Positions 4,501 through 51,871 of a stretch of DNA of 64,000 nt are shown here, in pieces. How positions within the stretch are numbered: position 1 is the first letter of the stretch; each line of letters opens with the position of its first letter. The notes under the pieces were generated by a model. That model worked only from the letters and a program-made list of their open reading frames with translations, did not search any database and was not told the DNA's origin. The position numbers and the translations under genes are program-made. The stretch comes from Halocalculus aciditolerans. GTDB taxonomy: Archaea > Halobacteriota > Halobacteria > Halobacteriales > Halobacteriaceae. The DNA is taken from the NCBI RefSeq assembly GCF_014647475.1, contig NZ_BMPG01000002.1, forward strand, positions 372,001-436,000, read 5' to 3'.

Positions 4501-5514
4501 CTACCCGAACCCCTCGGAGTAGACGTCGGATTCGGGGACGCCGACGGCGTGCACGACGTCCTCTAAGGTGTTGACCATGAGGGAGATGCCGCAGGCGTAG
4601 ACCTGGAGTTCGTCGGGGTCGATGGTCGCGGGCGCGTCGGTGTTCGGGGCCTCGCGGAGGCACTTCCGGAGGTCGGCGTTGAGGCCGGCCGGGTCGACGC
4701 CGTCGGCGAGGTACTTGCAGAACGTCTGCTGGACGTAGTCCGTCTCGCCGCGCCACGTCGTCACCGTCCGCTCGCGCGTGAGCGTCGGGACGAAGTGGAA
4801 CCCGCGGTGTTCCTCGTCCAGTTGCCGGAACTCCTCGCGGTACGCGAGGTCGTCCTTCCACGCGGTGCCGTAGAAGAGCCAGACGTCGCGGTCCTCGGCC
4901 AAGTCCTCCTGGTAGAGGTAGCGAATCATCCCGCGGAGCGGGGCGACGCCCGTCCCGGTCGCGAGGAAAGCGAGGTCCTTCGTGGAGTCCTCGTCGAGCG
5001 TGAAGTGGCCCTGGGGGCCGCGAATCGTCACGTCGTCTCCGACCTGTGCGTTCGAGAGCAAGTGGTCCGTCATGCGGCCGCCGGGCACCCGCCGGATGCA
5101 GAGCGCGAGGTCGTCGTCGTTCGGCGAGGAGGAGAGCGAGTAGGCCCGTGAGCGCCCGTCGTAGCGGAAGCCGACGAACTGGCCGGCGGCGTAGTCGATG
5201 TCGCCGTCGATGTCCACCGTTATCTCGACGAGACTCGGGAAGTCGCGTTCGATGCGGTCGCGGAGCTCGCGGAGTTTCGAGCGGTGATGGCGGGGGAGGC
5301 GTTCGGCGTCCGTCATCGCCTGCTGCCAGTTCACCTGCTCGCCGGCGACGGCGTCCGCGAGGCCGTGTTCGGTGAGGATGCGGGAGACCGCCGCGCGCAT
5401 CTCGTGTTCGCGGTGGCGGTCGAAGGCGTTGACGTGGGAGATGTGGCCGGTGTCGGTGACGAGCGGGAGTTCCGAGACCGAGTGAATACCGTACTGCTCC
5501 AGGAGCGACGTCAT
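4501..5514 (-). CDS. FAD/NAD(P)-binding ferredoxin reductase-like oxidoreductase
   Basis: A 337-residue flavoenzyme of the ferredoxin-NADP reductase superfamily. RAYSLSSSP (about 142) is the flavin-binding RxYS motif. GGRMTDHL (about 166) binds the FAD phosphate. LATGTGVAPLRGM (about 204) is the pyridine-nucleotide loop, and CGISLMV near the C-terminus is the conserved CG motif. An unusual alpha-helical N-terminal extension of about 90 residues precedes the FAD domain. No iron-sulphur cysteines are seen, so it probably pairs with a separate electron carrier. The stop codon touches the stop of the convergent lipoprotein gene. Confidence 0.82.
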   Translation of the reverse strand: MTSLLEQYGIHSVSELPLVTDTGHISHVNAFDRHREHEMRAAVSRILTEHGLADAVAGEQVNWQQAMTDAERLPRHHRSKLRELRDRIERDFPSLVEITVDIDGDIDYAAGQFVGFRYDGRSRAYSLSSSPNDDDLALCIRRVPGGRMTDHLLSNAQVGDDVTIRGPQGHFTLDEDSTKDLAFLATGTGVAPLRGMIRYLYQEDLAEDRDVWLFYGTAWKDDLAYREEFRQLDEEHRGFHFVPTLTRERTVTTWRGETDYVQQTFCKYLADGVDPAGLNADLRKCLREAPNTDAPATIDPDELQVYACGISLMVNTLEDVVHAVGVPESDVYSEGFG

Positions 5515-5604
5515 TCACTCCGTCTTCGGTCGCCGGCGTGATGTACTTCGGGGCTGTGCCACCGAGGACAGTGAGTATTTCCCCGCCTACGAGCTACCTC
5601 GGGT

Positions 5605-6051
5605 ATGGACGTTCTGGACACCGTCATCGAGAACCGCTTCATGGTGCAGCCGAACCACGCGAACATCAACGGGACCTGCCACGGGGGGAACGTGATGAAG
5701 TGGATGGACGAGGTCGGCGCGATGTCCGCGATGCGCTTCGCCGGCCAGCCCGTCGTCACCGCGCGCATGAACGAGGTGAACTTCAAACGCCCCGTCCCCA
5801 TCGGCGACACCGCCGCCATCGAGGCGTACGTCTATCAGGCGGGAACGACGAGCGTCCGCGTCCGCCTCCGCGCGTACGCCGAGAACCCCCGGACGGGCGA
5901 GAAGCGCCTCACCACGGAGTCCTACTTCGTCTACGTCGCCATCGACGACGACGGCGAGCCGAACGAGGTCCCGCCGCTCACCGTCGACAGCGTCGAGGGC
6001 GAGGAGCTCCGCGAGGACGCGCTCACCGAGGAGCCCGACCACGTCGAATGA
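5605..6051 (+). CDS. Acyl-CoA thioesterase, hotdog fold (YciA/BACH-like)
   Basis: A 148-residue hotdog-fold thioesterase predicted to hydrolyse acyl-CoA to free acid and CoA. The N-terminal half contains NHANINGTCHGGNVMKWMDE, the family signature with the active-site Asp/Glu facing the central helix; RPVPIGDTAAIEAYV is the following strand pair. The length matches single-domain members, which work as hexamers. GTATTTCC about 28 bases before the ATG at 5605 suggests a leaderless transcript. A short unrelated gene follows after about 50 bases. Confidence 0.87.
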   Translation: MDVLDTVIENRFMVQPNHANINGTCHGGNVMKWMDEVGAMSAMRFAGQPVVTARMNEVNFKRPVPIGDTAAIEAYVYQAGTTSVRVRLRAYAENPRTGEKRLTTESYFVYVAIDDDGEPNEVPPLTVDSVEGEELREDALTEEPDHVE

Positions 6052-6105
6052 GCGGGCGTCGTGGGTGACGCGGGGTTTAACCGCTCCCTCCGCCAACCTC
6101 CGGTC

Positions 6106-6558
6106 ATGATCGACCCGGACGACCTCCCGGACCCGCCGATGCTGGCGCGCGAACAGGACGTGAGCGAGTACGACGACGTCGAGGTGAACCCGACCGACAC
6201 CCACCGCGACGACCTCGACGACTTCCTCGCCGAAGGCGCGTGGGCGGACGCCATCGAGGAGTGGGCCGCCGACGCCGACCTCGACGAGGCCGAGTACGAG
6301 ATCGCGCGCGACCTCGGGCTCTTCCAGGAGTTCGACTTCTTCTGGGACTCCTTCGCGCAGCGCGTCGGCTACCACACCCCCGGTATCCCGGAGGACTGGA
6401 AGGAACGCGGCCTCCACCCGGACCTCGACTCGTGGAGTCAGGTCTCCGCCATCAACGCCGAACTCGCCACGCTCGGCCGCATCATCGCCGACGAGCTCCA
6501 CGAGTACGTCGACTGGGAAGACGACTACGACGCCCCCGACGACCTCCCAGACTTCTAG
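6106..6558 (+). CDS. Conserved haloarchaeal hypothetical protein
   Basis: A very acidic 150-residue soluble protein of unknown function with no recognised domain. It has an extended N-terminus (DDLPDPPMLARE) and a helical remainder rich in Asp, Glu and Trp. I chose the ATG at 6106 over the in-frame GTG at 6061, because a TTTAAC box at 6076-6081 lies just about 28 bases before it and the residues gained from the GTG are not protein-like. Acidity, codon use and the promoter make it a real gene. Confidence 0.68.
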   Translation: MIDPDDLPDPPMLAREQDVSEYDDVEVNPTDTHRDDLDDFLAEGAWADAIEEWAADADLDEAEYEIARDLGLFQEFDFFWDSFAQRVGYHTPGIPEDWKERGLHPDLDSWSQVSAINAELATLGRIIADELHEYVDWEDDYDAPDDLPDF

Positions 6559-6566
6559 GTGTAGGT

Positions 6567-6724
6567 GCTTCGGAGGCCGCGGAAGGCGGCCGAGAAGCAC
6601 CGAACACGCGAACGCCGAGCGACTACAGGAGCGACGCGTGAGACTGCTTCGGAGGCCGCGGAAGGCGGCCGAGACGCACCGGACACGCGAACGCCGAGCG
6701 ACCGCAAGAGGGAGGCGTGAGCGG
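6567..6724. repeat. Two tandem copies of a 79-base repeat
   Basis: Copy one spans 6567-6645 and copy two 6646-6724. They differ at only about ten positions. Each begins GCTTCGGAGGCCGCGGAAG and contains a GGCCG...CGGCC inverted pair. The repeat fills most of the gap between two convergent genes (6558 and 6844). No reading frame is convincing. It may be a structured transcript end or a dispersed element. Confidence 0.85.
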
Positions 6725-6843
6725 TGGCGTGATCGTTCGGAGCGGGGGAGCGACTAAAAGCGACGGGGCAGTGAGCGGGCCGGCGGATCGAAGTTCCCCG
6801 GACGTGCGGACGTCGAAAGTGCGGAGAGAACGAGGCGGCGGGG

Positions 6844-7779
6844 TCAGTAGCCGAGGTCGTTGGTGTAGTGGTCGAGGGCGGCGACGAGGCCGCCGCCGAC
6901 GGCGGCGGCGGCGAGGAGCGCCGCGACGGCGGTGGGCGTCCACGCGGGCGTTTCGGCGAGGACCTGTTCGCCGGGCGCGCGAAGCGACCCGGCCATGAGC
7001 GCGATGAGGAAGGTGAGCGTCGCGGTGCGGTAGTGGTCGAAGGCGTAGGAGACGACGCGCGCGAAGGTGAGGAGGCCGATGAGCGCGCCGGTGGAGAAGA
7101 CGGCGAGGACGAGGAAGGGGTCGGTCGCGGCGGCGAGGTTGCCGCGGAAGAGCGCGCGGGTGAGCGAGTGGACGGCGGTCGTCATCACGAGGTACTGGCC
7201 GATGGTGAGGAGGATGAGGGAGCCGGAGATGCCGGGGAGGACCATCGCGCAGATGGCGAGCGCGCCGGTGAGGAAGACGACGAGGAGGTTCGTCGTGCCG
7301 GTGCCGCCGGACGCCTGCCCGCTGACGAGGAACGCGAGCGCGAATCCGGCGACGGCGATGCCGAGGAGGCGCGGGCTACTGAGTGTGAAGTCGGCGCGGA
7401 GGACGACGACGGAGGCGGCGACGAGCCCGAAGAAGAACGCGTACGTCGGGCCGGGCGCGACCGCCGTCGCCGCCGTCACGACGTTCGCGACGGTGACGAC
7501 CGCGGAGAGGACGCCGACCGCGAGCACCGTGAGGAAGGGAACGTCCATCCGGAGGAGCTCCGCGCGGAGTTCCGCGCGCGGCTCGGCGTGGCGGGCGGCC
7601 GCGAGAAGCGGGACGAGCGCGAGAACGTCGCGCGGGTCGAGCGACGCGACCGCGTTCACGAGGCGCTCGTAGATGCCCGTGATGAGGGCGATTGTGCCGC
7701 CGGAGACGCCCGGAACCGCGTCCGCCGCGCCCATGCACGCGCCCTTCAGATACACGACGGCGAGGTCGCGTGCAGGCAT
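6844..7779 (-). CDS. DUF368/PopT-family polyprenyl-phosphate translocase
   Basis: A 311-residue polytopic membrane protein. The family signature near the N-terminus, MGAADAVPGVSGGTIALITG, identifies DUF368. Bacterial PopT members recycle undecaprenyl phosphate from the outer to the inner leaflet. VLPGISGSLILLTIGQY in the second half is the related inverted-repeat block. About eight to ten hydrophobic segments are present. It starts six bases after the aglB stop on the same strand, so the two are probably co-transcribed. In this context the lipid would be dolichol phosphate released by AglB; that is inference from position. Confidence 0.85.
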   Translation of the reverse strand: MPARDLAVVYLKGACMGAADAVPGVSGGTIALITGIYERLVNAVASLDPRDVLALVPLLAAARHAEPRAELRAELLRMDVPFLTVLAVGVLSAVVTVANVVTAATAVAPGPTYAFFFGLVAASVVVLRADFTLSSPRLLGIAVAGFALAFLVSGQASGGTGTTNLLVVFLTGALAICAMVLPGISGSLILLTIGQYLVMTTAVHSLTRALFRGNLAAATDPFLVLAVFSTGALIGLLTFARVVSYAFDHYRTATLTFLIALMAGSLRAPGEQVLAETPAWTPTAVAALLAAAAVGGGLVAALDHYTNDLGY

Positions 7780-45606: not shown

Positions 45607-46569
45607 CTACTGGAAGCCCATCGCTTCGATCTGCTCCTGGTAGCGGTTCCGGATGGTGACTTCCGTGACCTGCGCGACGTCGGCGACCTCGCGCTGCGTC
45701 TTCTTCTCGTTACAGAGCAGCGACGCCGCGTAGATCGCCGCCGCCGCAAAGCCCGTCGGCGACTTCCCGGAGAGCAACCCCTGCTCCGCCGAGACGTCGA
45801 TGATCTCGTTCGCCTTCGCGATGGTCTCCTCGTTCAGACCGAGTTCGGACGCGAACCGCGGAACGAACTGCTTCGGGTCCACCGGCTCCATCTCCAGGCT
45901 CAACTCCTGTGCCACGTACCGATACGTGCGGCCGATCTCCTTCTGGTCGACGCGGGAGACCTCCGCGACCTCCTCCAGCGAGCGCGGGATACCCTCTTTC
46001 CGGCACGCCGCGTAGAGGCACGCCGTCGCGACGCCCTCGATGCTGCGCCCGCGGATGAGGTCCTCCTTCAGCGCGCGCCGGTAGATGACCGACGCCACCT
46101 CGCGCACGGAGCGCGGCACGCCGAGCGCCGACGCCATACGGTCGATCTCGGAGAGCGCGAACTGGAGGTTCCGCTCGCCCGCGTCCTTCGTTCGGATTCG
46201 TTCCTGCCACTTGCGCAGGCGGTGCATCTGCGAGCGCTTCTTCGAGCTGATGGACCGACCGTAGGCGTCCTGGTCCTTCCAGTCGATCTGGGTGGTGAGA
46301 CCCTTGTCGTGCATCGTCTGCGTCGTCGGCGCGCCCACCCGCGACTTCTGCTGGCGCTCCGAGTGATTGAACGCCCGCCACTCCGGACCCCGGTCCACGT
46401 TGTCCTCCTCCAACACGAGACCACAGTCCTCGCAGATCAGCTCTCCCTGGTCCGCACTCCGGCTGATGTTCTCGGACTCACACTCCGGGCATTGGCGCGT
46501 CCCCTCCTCGGACTGCCGCTCGTTCGCCGCCTCGGACTCCCGCTCCTTCTGCCGGCTCGGGCGTACCAT
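45607..46569 (-). CDS. tfb: Transcription initiation factor IIB
   Basis: A 320-residue archaeal TFB. The N-terminal zinc ribbon has Cys at 27, 30, 46 and 49 (CPEC...CEDC). The B-finger/linker follows with [20 protein letters not shown]. Two cyclin folds (about 110-210 and 215-310) have LPRS-type helices: [20 protein letters not shown] and [20 protein letters not shown]. They bind TBP-DNA and the BRE. Haloarchaea carry several tfb copies; which paralogue this is cannot be said. AGTTTTAACC at 46594-46603 is its TATA box. Confidence 0.96.
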
Positions 46570-46872: not shown

Positions 46873-46995
46873 ATGACGGACCTCAACACGTTCCTCTCGG
46901 AACACCCGCGCATGATCGGCGTCGTCTTCACAATGGTTCTCCTCGTCAGCCAGGCCGGCAGTGTTGCCGGAATTAACCATGTCGCCGGCCCTTAA
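46873..46995 (+). CDS. 40-residue membrane micro-protein
   Basis: MTDLNTFLSEHPRMIGVVFT starts a 40-residue protein with one membrane helix (GVVFTMVLLVSQAGSVAG) and the tail INHVAGP. I recall a large haloarchaeal family of about 40 residues with this HPRM...QAG pattern, unnamed in function. GAGGTG lies before the ATG as ribosome-binding site and an AT-rich TATA region at about -40. It ends six bases before the end of the convergent CHAT gene. Real gene status is supported by the pattern, promoter and SD together. Confidence 0.75.
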   Translation: MTDLNTFLSEHPRMIGVVFTMVLLVSQAGSVAGINHVAGP

Positions 46996-47001
46996 CTAAG
47001 T

Positions 47002-49035
47002 CTACGGGAGGTTTTTAGCGTCCACCTCGTCGCTCCAGACTAATTGTCCGCCAAGGTGAATCGGGTAAAGGGCCTCACGAAACACAGCGGCTAATTCGTC
47101 CCGCTGGAGATTCATTGGCCCAATTGTGCCGAGAGAGAGATAATTCAAATCAGTCACATCAATGATGGATAGAATACCACCAACAGAAACCTCGGGCGAC
47201 GGATGAGGCGTAAACTCCGCAATTACCTCCGACGAACTCGTTTTTGCAACGTCTACGGAAGCGGGCATCCCCGTTTGACTCTGCACAATTGTTGTCCCAC
47301 CGTCTCCCAACACGATGTATTGGTCGCCGGTGAACATCTCATTCTGGACGATACCGAGGGATGAGCGTATAGTGAAGCCGGCGTTGAGAAGTCGCGCTAG
47401 CGATTTCCCGACGCGCGTCGCCATGGAGTCGGCGACGTCGTCGAGGGTGACGACGCCCGCGTAGCTCCCGTTCTCGATGAGGGCTTGGCCTTGGTCGTAG
47501 GAGTGGCAGGCGTTGAGGAGGAAGGATTTGACTCGGACGTCGTCGAGGGTGTGGGCGTCGAGGAAGCCGTCGGCGCACTGGAGGCCGTCTTCGTTGACGT
47601 GACCGATGTAGTGGAGGAAGTCGAAGTCGCGTTCGAGGAGGTCGGCGAGTTCGGTCTGTGAGAGTTCGTAGTGGACGTTGACGTCGAACTGGATCATCTC
47701 GCGGAGGCCGTAGAGTTCGTCGACGGCGCTCTCGGCGGTCATCTGTTCGTCGTTGCAGACGATGTGAATCTCGATGAAGGATTTCTCGGGCGGGGTGCGG
47801 TCGAGGCGGCGGCGGCAGGCGGCGACGCTGGCTTTGTTCGCGCCGAGCGGGTAGCCGGGGGCGGCCCAGACGTGCTCGGGGGTGTCGACGGGGTCGGGGT
47901 CGACGAGGAGCTCGCCGGAGGGCGTGCGGAACTGGGTGTCGGCGGGTTCGGGGGCGTCGCCGGTGGCGGCGGTGCCGGTCGTGCGGACGAGGGAGAGGTC
48001 GTTGGCGAGGAAGGGGAGCAGTTCGACCTGCTCGGGGCTGGGGGCGATGTCGGTGGTGAGGTGCCACTCGGGGAGGATGTCGGCGACGGCGTCGCGGGAG
48101 ACGTCGAGGTAGCGGTCGAGGCGCGCCGTGAGGTCGAGGTCGTAGAGGGCGGCGGGGTCGAGGTCGGTCGCGGCGTCGAAGGCGTCGCGTTCGGCGAGGT
48201 CGACGGGGTAGTAGCCTTCGGTTCTGACGACGCAGTCGAAGAGGACGAACTGGCGGAGGAGACGATTGACCGTCGCCTCGTAAGTGCCGTCGGCGGTCAG
48301 GTCGTAGGTGCGCTCGGGGAGGCGGAGTTCGGGGGCGTCGCTCGGCGTGAGGGTCGCGCCGAGGTAGAAGGCGAGCGGCACGGCGGGGTAGACGTAGCGG
48401 TAGTCGGCGGGGACCGCAATCTCGACGGCGGAGTCCGGAGGTTCGATGCCGGCGGGCGCGCGGAACTCGTCGCCGCGTTCGACGAGCGGCGGGTGGCCGC
48501 GGAGGGTGGGGAAGGAGCGCTCGGGAGAGAGCGTCTTCAGGCTGGAGCCGAAGAGGGAGACGGCGCGCATGACGTCCTCGACGTCGTCGGTGACGGTGAT
48601 GGTGCCCGCGGGCGACTCGTGGAAGGAGCGCGCGCCGACGCGCACCGTCGTGTCGGCGTCGAAGTCGAACTCGATGGCGTGTTCGGACTCCGTGACGTCG
48701 AGGCGACCGTCGACGAGGAGGTAGGTCTTCACGGGCGCGCTCGACAGTTCGACGTTGTACCGGCCGTCGGGGAGTTCGAGCGGGTCCTCTCCGGGCACGA
48801 ACTCCCCGACGAGGTCGCCGTCTCGCCGGCGGACGTACACGCGGTGGCGGTGCGGGTAGACGATAGATTCGGTCGTGAAGCGGACCGCGGCGTCGATGGG
48901 GAAGTAGAACTCGTCGTCGCCGACGGCGTCGACGGCGACCGGAGCGGGCGTGTAGAGTTCCGCCTGCGCGTTCTCGATGGGGTCCTCGATACGGACGCCG
49001 TAACCCGATTCTGGGGACGTGAACTCTGGCCGCAC
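47002..49035 (-). CDS. CHAT-domain (caspase-fold) protease-like protein
   Basis: A 677-residue protein with a C-terminal CHAT domain. DFDFLHYIGHVNEDGLQCAD has the catalytic His (about 479) and FLLNACHSYDQGQALIENG the Cys (about 510), with VVTLDDVADSMATRVGKSLA after it, matching the CHAT/caspase layout. The first about 430 residues are not recognised (beta-rich, with VPADYRYVYPAVPLAFYLG). Start GTG at 49035 was chosen for its GGAGG motif and plausible N-terminus; the open frame to 49263 is Gly-rich non-protein-like. The last about 120 codons are clearly AT-richer. The substrate is unknown; CHAT proteases often act in defence or surface signalling. Confidence 0.78.
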   Translation of the reverse strand: MRPEFTSPESGYGVRIEDPIENAQAELYTPAPVAVDAVGDDEFYFPIDAAVRFTTESIVYPHRHRVYVRRRDGDLVGEFVPGEDPLELPDGRYNVELSSAPVKTYLLVDGRLDVTESEHAIEFDFDADTTVRVGARSFHESPAGTITVTDDVEDVMRAVSLFGSSLKTLSPERSFPTLRGHPPLVERGDEFRAPAGIEPPDSAVEIAVPADYRYVYPAVPLAFYLGATLTPSDAPELRLPERTYDLTADGTYEATVNRLLRQFVLFDCVVRTEGYYPVDLAERDAFDAATDLDPAALYDLDLTARLDRYLDVSRDAVADILPEWHLTTDIAPSPEQVELLPFLANDLSLVRTTGTAATGDAPEPADTQFRTPSGELLVDPDPVDTPEHVWAAPGYPLGANKASVAACRRRLDRTPPEKSFIEIHIVCNDEQMTAESAVDELYGLREMIQFDVNVHYELSQTELADLLERDFDFLHYIGHVNEDGLQCADGFLDAHTLDDVRVKSFLLNACHSYDQGQALIENGSYAGVVTLDDVADSMATRVGKSLARLLNAGFTIRSSLGIVQNEMFTGDQYIVLGDGGTTIVQSQTGMPASVDVAKTSSSEVIAEFTPHPSPEVSVGGILSIIDVTDLNYLSLGTIGPMNLQRDELAAVFREALYPIHLGGQLVWSDEVDAKNLP

Positions 49036-49420
49036 TACCCCTCCTAGCGACTCACCGCTAAAGAACCTATCCTCGGACCGCGCGCCGCCGACGCCGAGCG
49101 ACGCCGCGCGGTGAATAGGTTTAAACGTCGGGACGAACAAGCAAGGGATGCCGACGAACGACGCTTTTCTCGTCTGAGTCGGCAACCTCAAATTCGCCCC
49201 ACCTCGTCCCACCGTCCGGTCGCCCGCACCGGACACCTCGGGGCCGGCGGACCCCGGCCCCATTCCACCGCCACTCCTCGCCGCTTCGACGTCGACTCGT
49301 CCCGTGTAGCGTTCGCTCCGCTCACGCTTCGCCCCTCGCGACTCGACGACGCATGAGGAGGTGGCGGCTACGCTGAGTGGATGACGGCCGGCAGAAAAAC
49401 GTGGTAGGCTGAGTCGCGGG
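49036..49420. other. 385-base intergenic region
   Basis: It holds the CHAT promoter (TTCTTTAGC on the minus strand near 49057-49065) and a TTTAAAC near 49119 on the plus strand, which precedes only a nine-codon frame at 49148. No credible gene or RNA is seen. Confidence 0.5.
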
Positions 49421-51025: not shown

Positions 51026-51871
51026 TTAGCGGAAGGGGCTCGGCGGCCGCGAGAGCTTCTCTTGGAGCGTTCGGAACTCCGCTTCGGTGAGTTCGAGGTC
51101 CTCGCGGAGGTCTTCGAGTTCGTTCCGCGTCGTCACTTCCTCGGTGACGTCCTCGACGTAGACCGACGTGCCGGCGTCGTCCCGGTAGATGTAGAGGTCG
51201 AACCACGCGTCGAGGGGGGCGAAGTAGAACTCGAGCCCGCTGTCCTCGCCGGAGTCGGTCGTCTCTCGGAGTTCCCGCTCGAAGGGCGTTCCGACGACGT
51301 CGGGGACGACGTCCCAGAGGAGTTCGTCCATCGCGTCGGTGGCGTCGACGCCGAAGAGGTCCTCCGCGTACTCGTTCAGGTAGGTGACGTGGAAGGCCTC
51401 GTCGAGTCCGATGAATCCGGCGTTGATGCGTTCGTAGACTTCGAGTTCGCGCGCGGTCGCCTCTTCGAGCGCGCGGTCGGCGCGGTAGCTCTTGACGAGC
51501 GTGATGATGCGGTTCCCGAGGAGCGCGAACCGGTTCGACGTCGGCTCTTTCCGGACGTAGTCGGTGACGCCGGAGTGGATGGCTTCCGCGGCGAGTTCCT
51601 CGCTCCCGTACCCCGTGAAGAAGACGACGGGGAGGGATTCGTGGTTCTCGCGGACGCGCTTGAGGAGTTCGATGCCGTCCATGCCGGGCATCCGGTAGTC
51701 GGCGACCACGCAGTCGATCTCGTGTTCGTCGAGCAGCGCGAGGCCGTCCTCGGCTGACGTCGCGGTCACGATGTCGATGCTCGAGAAGTCTCGGACGAGG
51801 ACCGTCCGCGTCAAGTCGAGGAATTCCTCGTCGTCGTCGATGTGTAAGACGGTGATTCCCTCGGGTTCCAT
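51026..51871 (-). CDS. Response regulator with PAS domain
   Basis: A 281-residue two-component output protein. The receiver (about 1-125) has LHIDDDEEFL (acidic pocket), the phospho-Asp in VVADYRMPGMDGIEL (about 58), the conserved Thr/Ser in VFFTGYGSEE and Lys in DYVRKEPT. A PAS domain (about 145-250) follows, and a short helical end. No DNA-binding or kinase domain is present, which is common among haloarchaeal receivers. It may relay to another protein. No histidine kinase gene is next to it. Confidence 0.88.
   Translation of the reverse strand: MEPEGITVLHIDDDEEFLDLTRTVLVRDFSSIDIVTATSAEDGLALLDEHEIDCVVADYRMPGMDGIELLKRVRENHESLPVVFFTGYGSEELAAEAIHSGVTDYVRKEPTSNRFALLGNRIITLVKSYRADRALEEATARELEVYERINAGFIGLDEAFHVTYLNEYAEDLFGVDATDAMDELLWDVVPDVVGTPFERELRETTDSGEDSGLEFYFAPLDAWFDLYIYRDDAGTSVYVEDVTEEVTTRNELEDLREDLELTEAEFRTLQEKLSRPPSPFR

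Follow-up and report, generated by a model that had tools for sequence, protein, structure and literature searches.

On the minus strand of a 64,000-nucleotide stretch of Halocalculus aciditolerans DNA (the window) lies a gene for a CHAT-like protein with a caspase fold and a His-Cys dyad, and its 3' end abuts that of a convergent gene for a 40-residue micropeptide of the DUF7503 family, as it does in most haloarchaeal copies. We tentatively favour the reading that the two genes constitute a peptide-coupled protease switch, to which we assign a probability of about 0.42. In the following we describe the protease and the peptide, the variation of the protease's C-terminal domain and the genomic setting, and weigh the other readings where the evidence bears on them.

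The protease gene and its modelled fold

The original prediction had reported an open reading frame at 47002-49035 containing the motifs YIGH and LNACHS. The frame is real and both motifs are present, but it has to be read on the minus strand, from 49035 to 47002, the plus strand being interrupted across this interval (Table 1). The frame stays open upstream as far as an ATG at 49263; we took the GTG at 49035 as the start because homologues begin at the equivalent site (MRPEF/MKPEF...). The encoded protein has no evident signal sequence. Conservation of the dyad among orthologues had been proposed as a check, and when 74 haloarchaeal homologues were aligned, H475, H479, N508, C510 and Q515 proved invariant, so that the dyad motifs are not a product of chance. 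The window's own genome also carries two tandem paralogues (locus L037) that lack both residues of the dyad and are, as judged from their sequences, likely inactive CHAT copies; the dyad is also missing from one more distant relative (L133). Selection on the dyad can thus relax, but where the dyad is kept it is strictly kept.

The score of the window protein against the Pfam CHAT family PF12770 is 12.4 bits, below the gathering cut-off of 24 bits, and its own-genome paralogues likewise fall below this value; we therefore call the protein CHAT-like on account of its fold and dyad and not a member of PF12770. Sequence searches of the PDB with the single protein and with the 74-row profile returned nothing useful, and NCBIfam gave no match to the CHAT-like protein. 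An AlphaFold2 model of the 677-residue protein, built on the 74-row alignment, reached a pLDDT of 89.4 and a pTM of 0.91, and structural neighbours were obtained using Foldseek and VIA-align. For residues about 323-620 the best VIA match was gingipain RgpB (Z 18.4, rmsd 3.4, 246 aligned), followed by separase (Z 16.6, rmsd 4.0, 232 aligned), a SAVED-CHAT protein (Z 15.6, rmsd 2.9, 169 aligned) and the TPR-CHAT of Craspase (Z 14.6, rmsd 3.8, 214 aligned). The caspase-hemoglobinase fold is accordingly recovered at Z 14-18 over roughly 170-250 residues. On the strength of this confident model and of a dyad invariant in all 74 homologues, the window protein is a caspase/CHAT-fold cysteine protease by fold and dyad, with predicted activity, as had been proposed.

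Structure prediction had been suggested for the roughly 430 residues ahead of the protease domain, which were said to match nothing. That statement does not hold, since this region folds confidently in the model as a beta-sandwich (residues 1-143) and an alpha/beta domain (residues 144-353), with a pLDDT of 95.4 when residues 1-353 are modelled alone; residues 354-404 form a poorly ordered linker. For residues 1-143 the best VIA match was the mutarotase-related structure 3dcd, with a Z of 8.5 (rmsd 3.7, 130 aligned) that is middling and barely over the level VIA calls common. VIA gave no match well above Z 8 for residues 1-353, so we claim only a beta-sandwich of supersandwich-like type, and the absence of a family from this list proves nothing. 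Some VIA rows, those of the Craspase TPR-CHAT and separase, extend the aligned range back to residues 211-216, for which reason the alpha/beta domain may be an inactive caspase-like half.

Table 1. Coordinates of the protease and peptide genes, their parts and related features; positions are those of the window unless a locus is named.
Feature	Position	Strand	Description
CHAT/caspase-fold protease gene	47002..49035	(-)	677 aa, GTG start; homologues, fold model
N-terminal beta-sandwich, residues 1-143	48607..49035	(-)	supersandwich/mutarotase-like arrangement, model pLDDT 95
Alpha/beta domain, residues 144-353	47977..48606	(-)	model; most conserved part, GSALKTTSPERSFPTLRGHPP
Catalytic CHAT/caspase-fold domain, residues 405-585	47281..47823	(-)	VIA matches
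His479 codon, predicted catalytic	47599..47601	(-)	motif LHYIGH/YIGH, invariant in 74 homologues
Cys510 codon, predicted catalytic	47506..47508	(-)	motif LNACHS, invariant in 74 homologues
C-terminal beta domain, residues 590-677	47005..47268	(-)	variable, low GC3
DUF7503 micropeptide gene	46873..46995	(+)	40 aa, MTDLNTFLSEHPRMIGVVFTMVLLVSQAGSVAGINHVAGP; PF24335, convergent with CHAT gene
Predicted tail INHVAGP	46972..46992	(+)	after signal-peptidase-like V-A-G site; position rules, 67 relatives
TFB (TFIIB-type) gene	45607..46569	(-)	adjoins CHAT/DUF7503 pair; context only
Tandem dyad-less paralogues (G000:C3)	L037:3308-5374 and 5501-7543		N-terminal domains kept
Halospeciosus flavus (G006) DUF7503 copies read	L120:3257-3429, L121:3088-3260		about 171-bp unit

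The convergent DUF7503 gene and its peptide

It had been noted that the protease gene has no partner on its own strand. None is indeed found there, but the claim overlooked the opposite strand, where the stop codon of the DUF7503 gene is separated from that of the CHAT gene by 6 nt. The peptide scores 60.7 bits (E=1e-16) against PF24335, above the cut-off of 27 bits. A neighbourhood survey of orthologues, also among the proposed checks and comprising 83 homologues in 79 Halobacteria loci, found a convergent DUF7503 gene beside 67 of the 83 homologues. The stop-to-stop distance in these pairs ranges from -6 to 126 nt with a median of 1; the stops lie no more than 5 nt apart in 53 pairs, and 17 pairs overlap by 4-6 nt. 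Recognised DUF7503 is absent at the other 16 CHAT genes, three of which have look-alikes (L061, L062 and L077), diverged convergent peptides that were missed by the DUF7503 model, all end in Gly-Pro and in two cases have Cys-rich tails. When the count starts from the peptide, DUF7503 has 65 matches in 59 genomes; 54 of these converge with one of the CHAT matches listed, and the remaining 11 comprise four that proved convergent with CHAT on inspection, five in Halospeciosus flavus and two that were left out. The dependence is one-sided: DUF7503 is hardly found without CHAT, and CHAT occurs without DUF7503. The protease can exist without the peptide, as seen from the 16 genes above and from distant methanogen-like relatives, beside which no peptide gene was seen by eye in the stretches read.

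The five DUF7503 copies of H. flavus are near-identical and dispersed. No CHAT gene was found within the 6 kb read around each of the copies at L120 and L121, and the repeated unit is perhaps a small mobile unit.

Pfam assigns DUF7503 no function. Neither DUF7503 or CHAT in haloarchaea nor the pair is described in the open-access papers searched, subscription literature lying outside the search; silence in a search of this scope is no proof of novelty, and the suggestion of an undescribed system is plausible.

Given that many of the gene pairs abut or overlap by a few nucleotides, convergence could be kept for antisense control of the transcripts, in either direction, with a separate role for the peptide. 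This is highly unlikely in our view: purifying selection acts strongly on the peptide sequence itself, with pN smaller than pS in 53 of 53 similar pairs (means 0.17 versus 0.48), and DUF7503 was very rarely seen away from CHAT, whereas antisense control needs no particular peptide family. The C-terminal Gly-Pro is also preserved across many codon combinations. Judged by its substitution pattern, DUF7503 is a real protein under purifying selection.

We numbered the 67 peptides, which are about 42 residues long, from the His or Asn (position 0) of a [H/N]-P-[R/K] motif. Conserved positions are P1 (66/67), R/K2 (66/67), G5 (64/67), F8 (66/67), Q16 (55/67) and G18 (65/67), the last near -5 relative to a putative cleavage site. 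At position 20 (-3) Ala, Val, Thr, Gly or Ser is found, with Val in 30 of the 67, and position 22 (-1) is Ala or Gly in all peptides except one and never Val. The tail after position 22 comprises 7-10 residues, nine in 46 peptides, and there are 65 distinct tail sequences among the 67. An AxA-type -3/-1 rule together with a short hydrophobic core fits 66 peptides, and most DUF7503 sequences consequently look like a signal peptide, with predicted cleavage, followed by a variable tail that ends in Gly-Pro. Several features speak against a signal peptide: the first segment (N-region) is often acidic, which is unusual there, the AxA-like site is absent in the three diverged peptides, and the second DUF7503 peptide of the window's own genome has Phe at -3. 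Moreover, the leader is conserved more than the tail, which is excessive for a generic signal peptide, and it may therefore be the leader that does the work.

A bolder interpretation of this anatomy regards DUF7503 as a source of secreted pheromones, 7-10 residues long and mostly ending in Gly-Pro, and the convergent CHAT protein as their intracellular receptor-effector. We consider it doubtful. If true, it would mean gene-encoded peptide signalling in archaea with proteolysis instead of transcription as its output; each genome would hold many private peptide/receptor pairs, to which swaps of the C-terminal domain would have added diversity.

The conserved basic residue also bears on the possibility that the peptide is a substrate. 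Here the micropeptide would sit in the membrane and be cut by the CHAT protein, with the conserved [E/D]-[H/N]-P-[R/K] just ahead of the hydrophobic stretch as one possible site, and a membrane-active fragment would be released, much as in bacterial gasdermin-type cell death but in minimal form. CHAT and DUF7503 form an adjacent pair, the near-invariant R/K sits at the membrane border, often with an acidic residue three positions before it, and gingipain and separase, which are structural neighbours of the window protein, cut after basic residues. However, the start of any signal peptide would be expected to show a conserved R/K just as well, the pair has no gasdermin domain and is absent from PADLOC, and several copies per genome with conserved flanks are unlike a suicide cassette; we regard this explanation as unlikely.

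C-terminal variation and genomic setting

Across the 83 genes, the final 100 codons have a GC3 of 0.62-0.65 versus about 0.79-0.83 elsewhere, and in the window gene the corresponding values are 0.48-0.56 and 0.78-0.98. The pair L080/L087 is about 0.9 identical in DNA along the gene, about 0.6 over the last 300 nt or so and 0.96 in DUF7503, and at the C-terminal segment dS rises from 0.36 to 2.15 and dN from 0.04 to 0.39. A drop in identity with a jump in pS and pN at this segment was seen in several close pairs; the close pairs L040/L006 and L093/L107 have no such jump, indicating that the change is episodic. In addition, the CHAT gene of Halococcus thailandensis (L092) is chimeric with respect to two paralogues of H. 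morrhuae: its 5' part and upstream flank resemble one (L100), its 3' part and downstream flank the other (L117), and the switch point falls inside the CHAT domain. Between the two paralogues, identity is 0.8-0.9 for much of the core, and the differences lie in the N-terminus, the linker and the C-terminal domain. Our evidence for recombination consists of the abrupt loss of identity within close pairs together with this chimera; high C-terminal pS was rejected as proof in every pair, the segment having a weaker GC3 bias and higher saturation. Two sources of variation were also rejected. Silent donor cassettes do not fit, since the C-terminal-domain matches listed sit in long CHAT-size frames, with a 200-aa frame (G033:C11) as the sole exception, and there is thus no cassette array; a diversity-generating retroelement was dismissed as the window's genome has no RVT_1 match (no reverse transcriptase).

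With the rest of the protein accounted for, the C-terminal domain is the part whose variation follows that of the peptide most closely (partial r about 0.2; 0/300 and 0/500 permutations), and between distant pairs the correlations of the tail with individual domains stay at or below r 0.10. This co-variation could reflect interaction or physical linkage alike.

A fast-changing, mosaic C-terminal domain and the presence of copies on plasmids as well as chromosomes might point to an anti-virus or self/non-self system, and CHAT proteases serve in defence elsewhere. The C-terminal domain would then sense an invader protein, the protease would trigger dormancy or death and DUF7503 would be the membrane effector. 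Against this, the window protein has no match in PADLOC, no CHAT homologue was found in phage records, no defence-island neighbours were seen, the family is common and multi-copy, and flanking genes of housekeeping or signalling type are conserved at some loci across genera. We consider a defence role very unlikely, and the hint of abortive defence in the original prediction was not borne out. The order CHAT-DUF7503-TFB-ParA is common to the window and H. flavus (L039; TFB 94%, ParA 74%), and the other neighbours scanned with Pfam encode TFB, ParA, ALDH, MocA and RR-PAS. In subgroups of loci, HalX response regulators and HalOD1 and DUF7344 domains recur near CHAT. The neighbour clustering covered nearby ORFs, and several of its clusters reflect nothing but the antisense strand of real genes. 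Taken together, the setting suggests regulation from stable loci rather than a mobile defence cassette.

At the window, a response regulator with a PAS domain (51026-51871, minus strand) lies two genes upstream of the CHAT gene and is mentioned as context only. DUF7504 (PF24336) is found directly upstream on the same strand in 35 of 83 CHAT loci and downstream in 18; it was rejected as a universal partner in view of these counts, its absence near the window gene and the size of the family. A sigma-70-type promoter scan was set aside as inapplicable to archaea.

The CHAT family is present in 80 of 98 relatives, often in 3-5 copies, and four more distant genomes of the same phylum but other families (L132-L135) each carry a single copy, with DnaG-type and UPF0146-type genes as neighbours. 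Halobacterium salinarum DSM 3754 also has a copy (L097). This breadth and an apparently ancestral single copy would suit a housekeeping or stress protease that provides a constitutive haloarchaeal caspase-like activity, with DUF7503 as a mere membrane tether or chaperone; Haloferax volcanii has such an activity without an assigned gene (PMC3615174), and its genome matches PF24335. Yet variable tails and a variable C-terminal domain are unexpected in a plain housekeeping enzyme, the family is absent in 18 of the 98 relatives, and the link to H. volcanii runs through matches to PF24335 and PF24336 rather than a CHAT gene. We judge this explanation somewhat unlikely.

Proposed mechanism and known systems

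In the two-gene switch that we favour, the signal-peptide-like leader of DUF7503 would direct the peptide into the membrane or across it, and removal of the leader would leave, in most copies, a tail of 7-10 residues ending in Gly-Pro. The peptide, as tail ligand or as membrane-bound regulator, would time the cutting of cytosolic targets by its own protease, and the variable C-terminal domain would set partner or target specificity. With abutting 3' ends the transcripts would be mutually antisense, and expression of the two genes would be coupled. The mode of peptide action, be it as ligand, substrate or tether, is one that we infer. The tight pairing of a caspase-fold protein with a selected, export-like micropeptide raises the possibility of proteolysis-linked peptide communication in archaea, and gives context to DUF7503 and partly to DUF7504, families of unknown function.

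The window protein resembles the clan CD proteins CHAT, separase and gingipain (PF12770; PDB 4ief, 5fc2, 8tl0) in its caspase fold at residues about 323-620, its dyad and the characteristic strands and helices after the dyad. It differs from CHAT proteases in that its N-terminus is a beta-sandwich followed by an alpha/beta domain, where those have TPR or SAVED, as well as in its sub-cut-off Pfam score, variable C-terminal domain and DUF7503 partner. With Craspase and the bacterial gasdermin/CHAT pairs it shares a CHAT protease encoded beside a partner. However, type III-E Craspase combines TPR-CHAT with Cas7-11, whereas here there is no TPR and the Pfam scan of the neighbours gave no Cas gene; gasdermin-protease pairs have an adjacent substrate with a gasdermin fold, whereas the partner here is a predicted membrane or exported peptide of 40 aa on the opposite strand.

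In the Rgg/SHP group III quorum-sensing systems of streptococci, the peptide gene lies downstream of the receptor gene and is convergent with it (PMC3679016). The likeness is one of layout only, an intracellular partner with a short hydrophobic peptide and variable short tails. The Rgg receptor is a DNA-binding transcription factor and the partner here has a protease fold, so the pair may work like Rgg/SHP but is not such a system.

Finally, strong caspase-like activity has been reported for haloarchaea while no gene for it was known; in H. volcanii it is IETDase/caspase-4-like, and the responsible proteins were never identified (PMC3615174). The present family is alike in being a caspase-fold family widespread in haloarchaea, and the H. 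volcanii genome matches both PF24335 and PF24336. The CHAT-like family is a candidate source of this activity, a concrete and widespread one with an intact dyad, and as such a first gene candidate.
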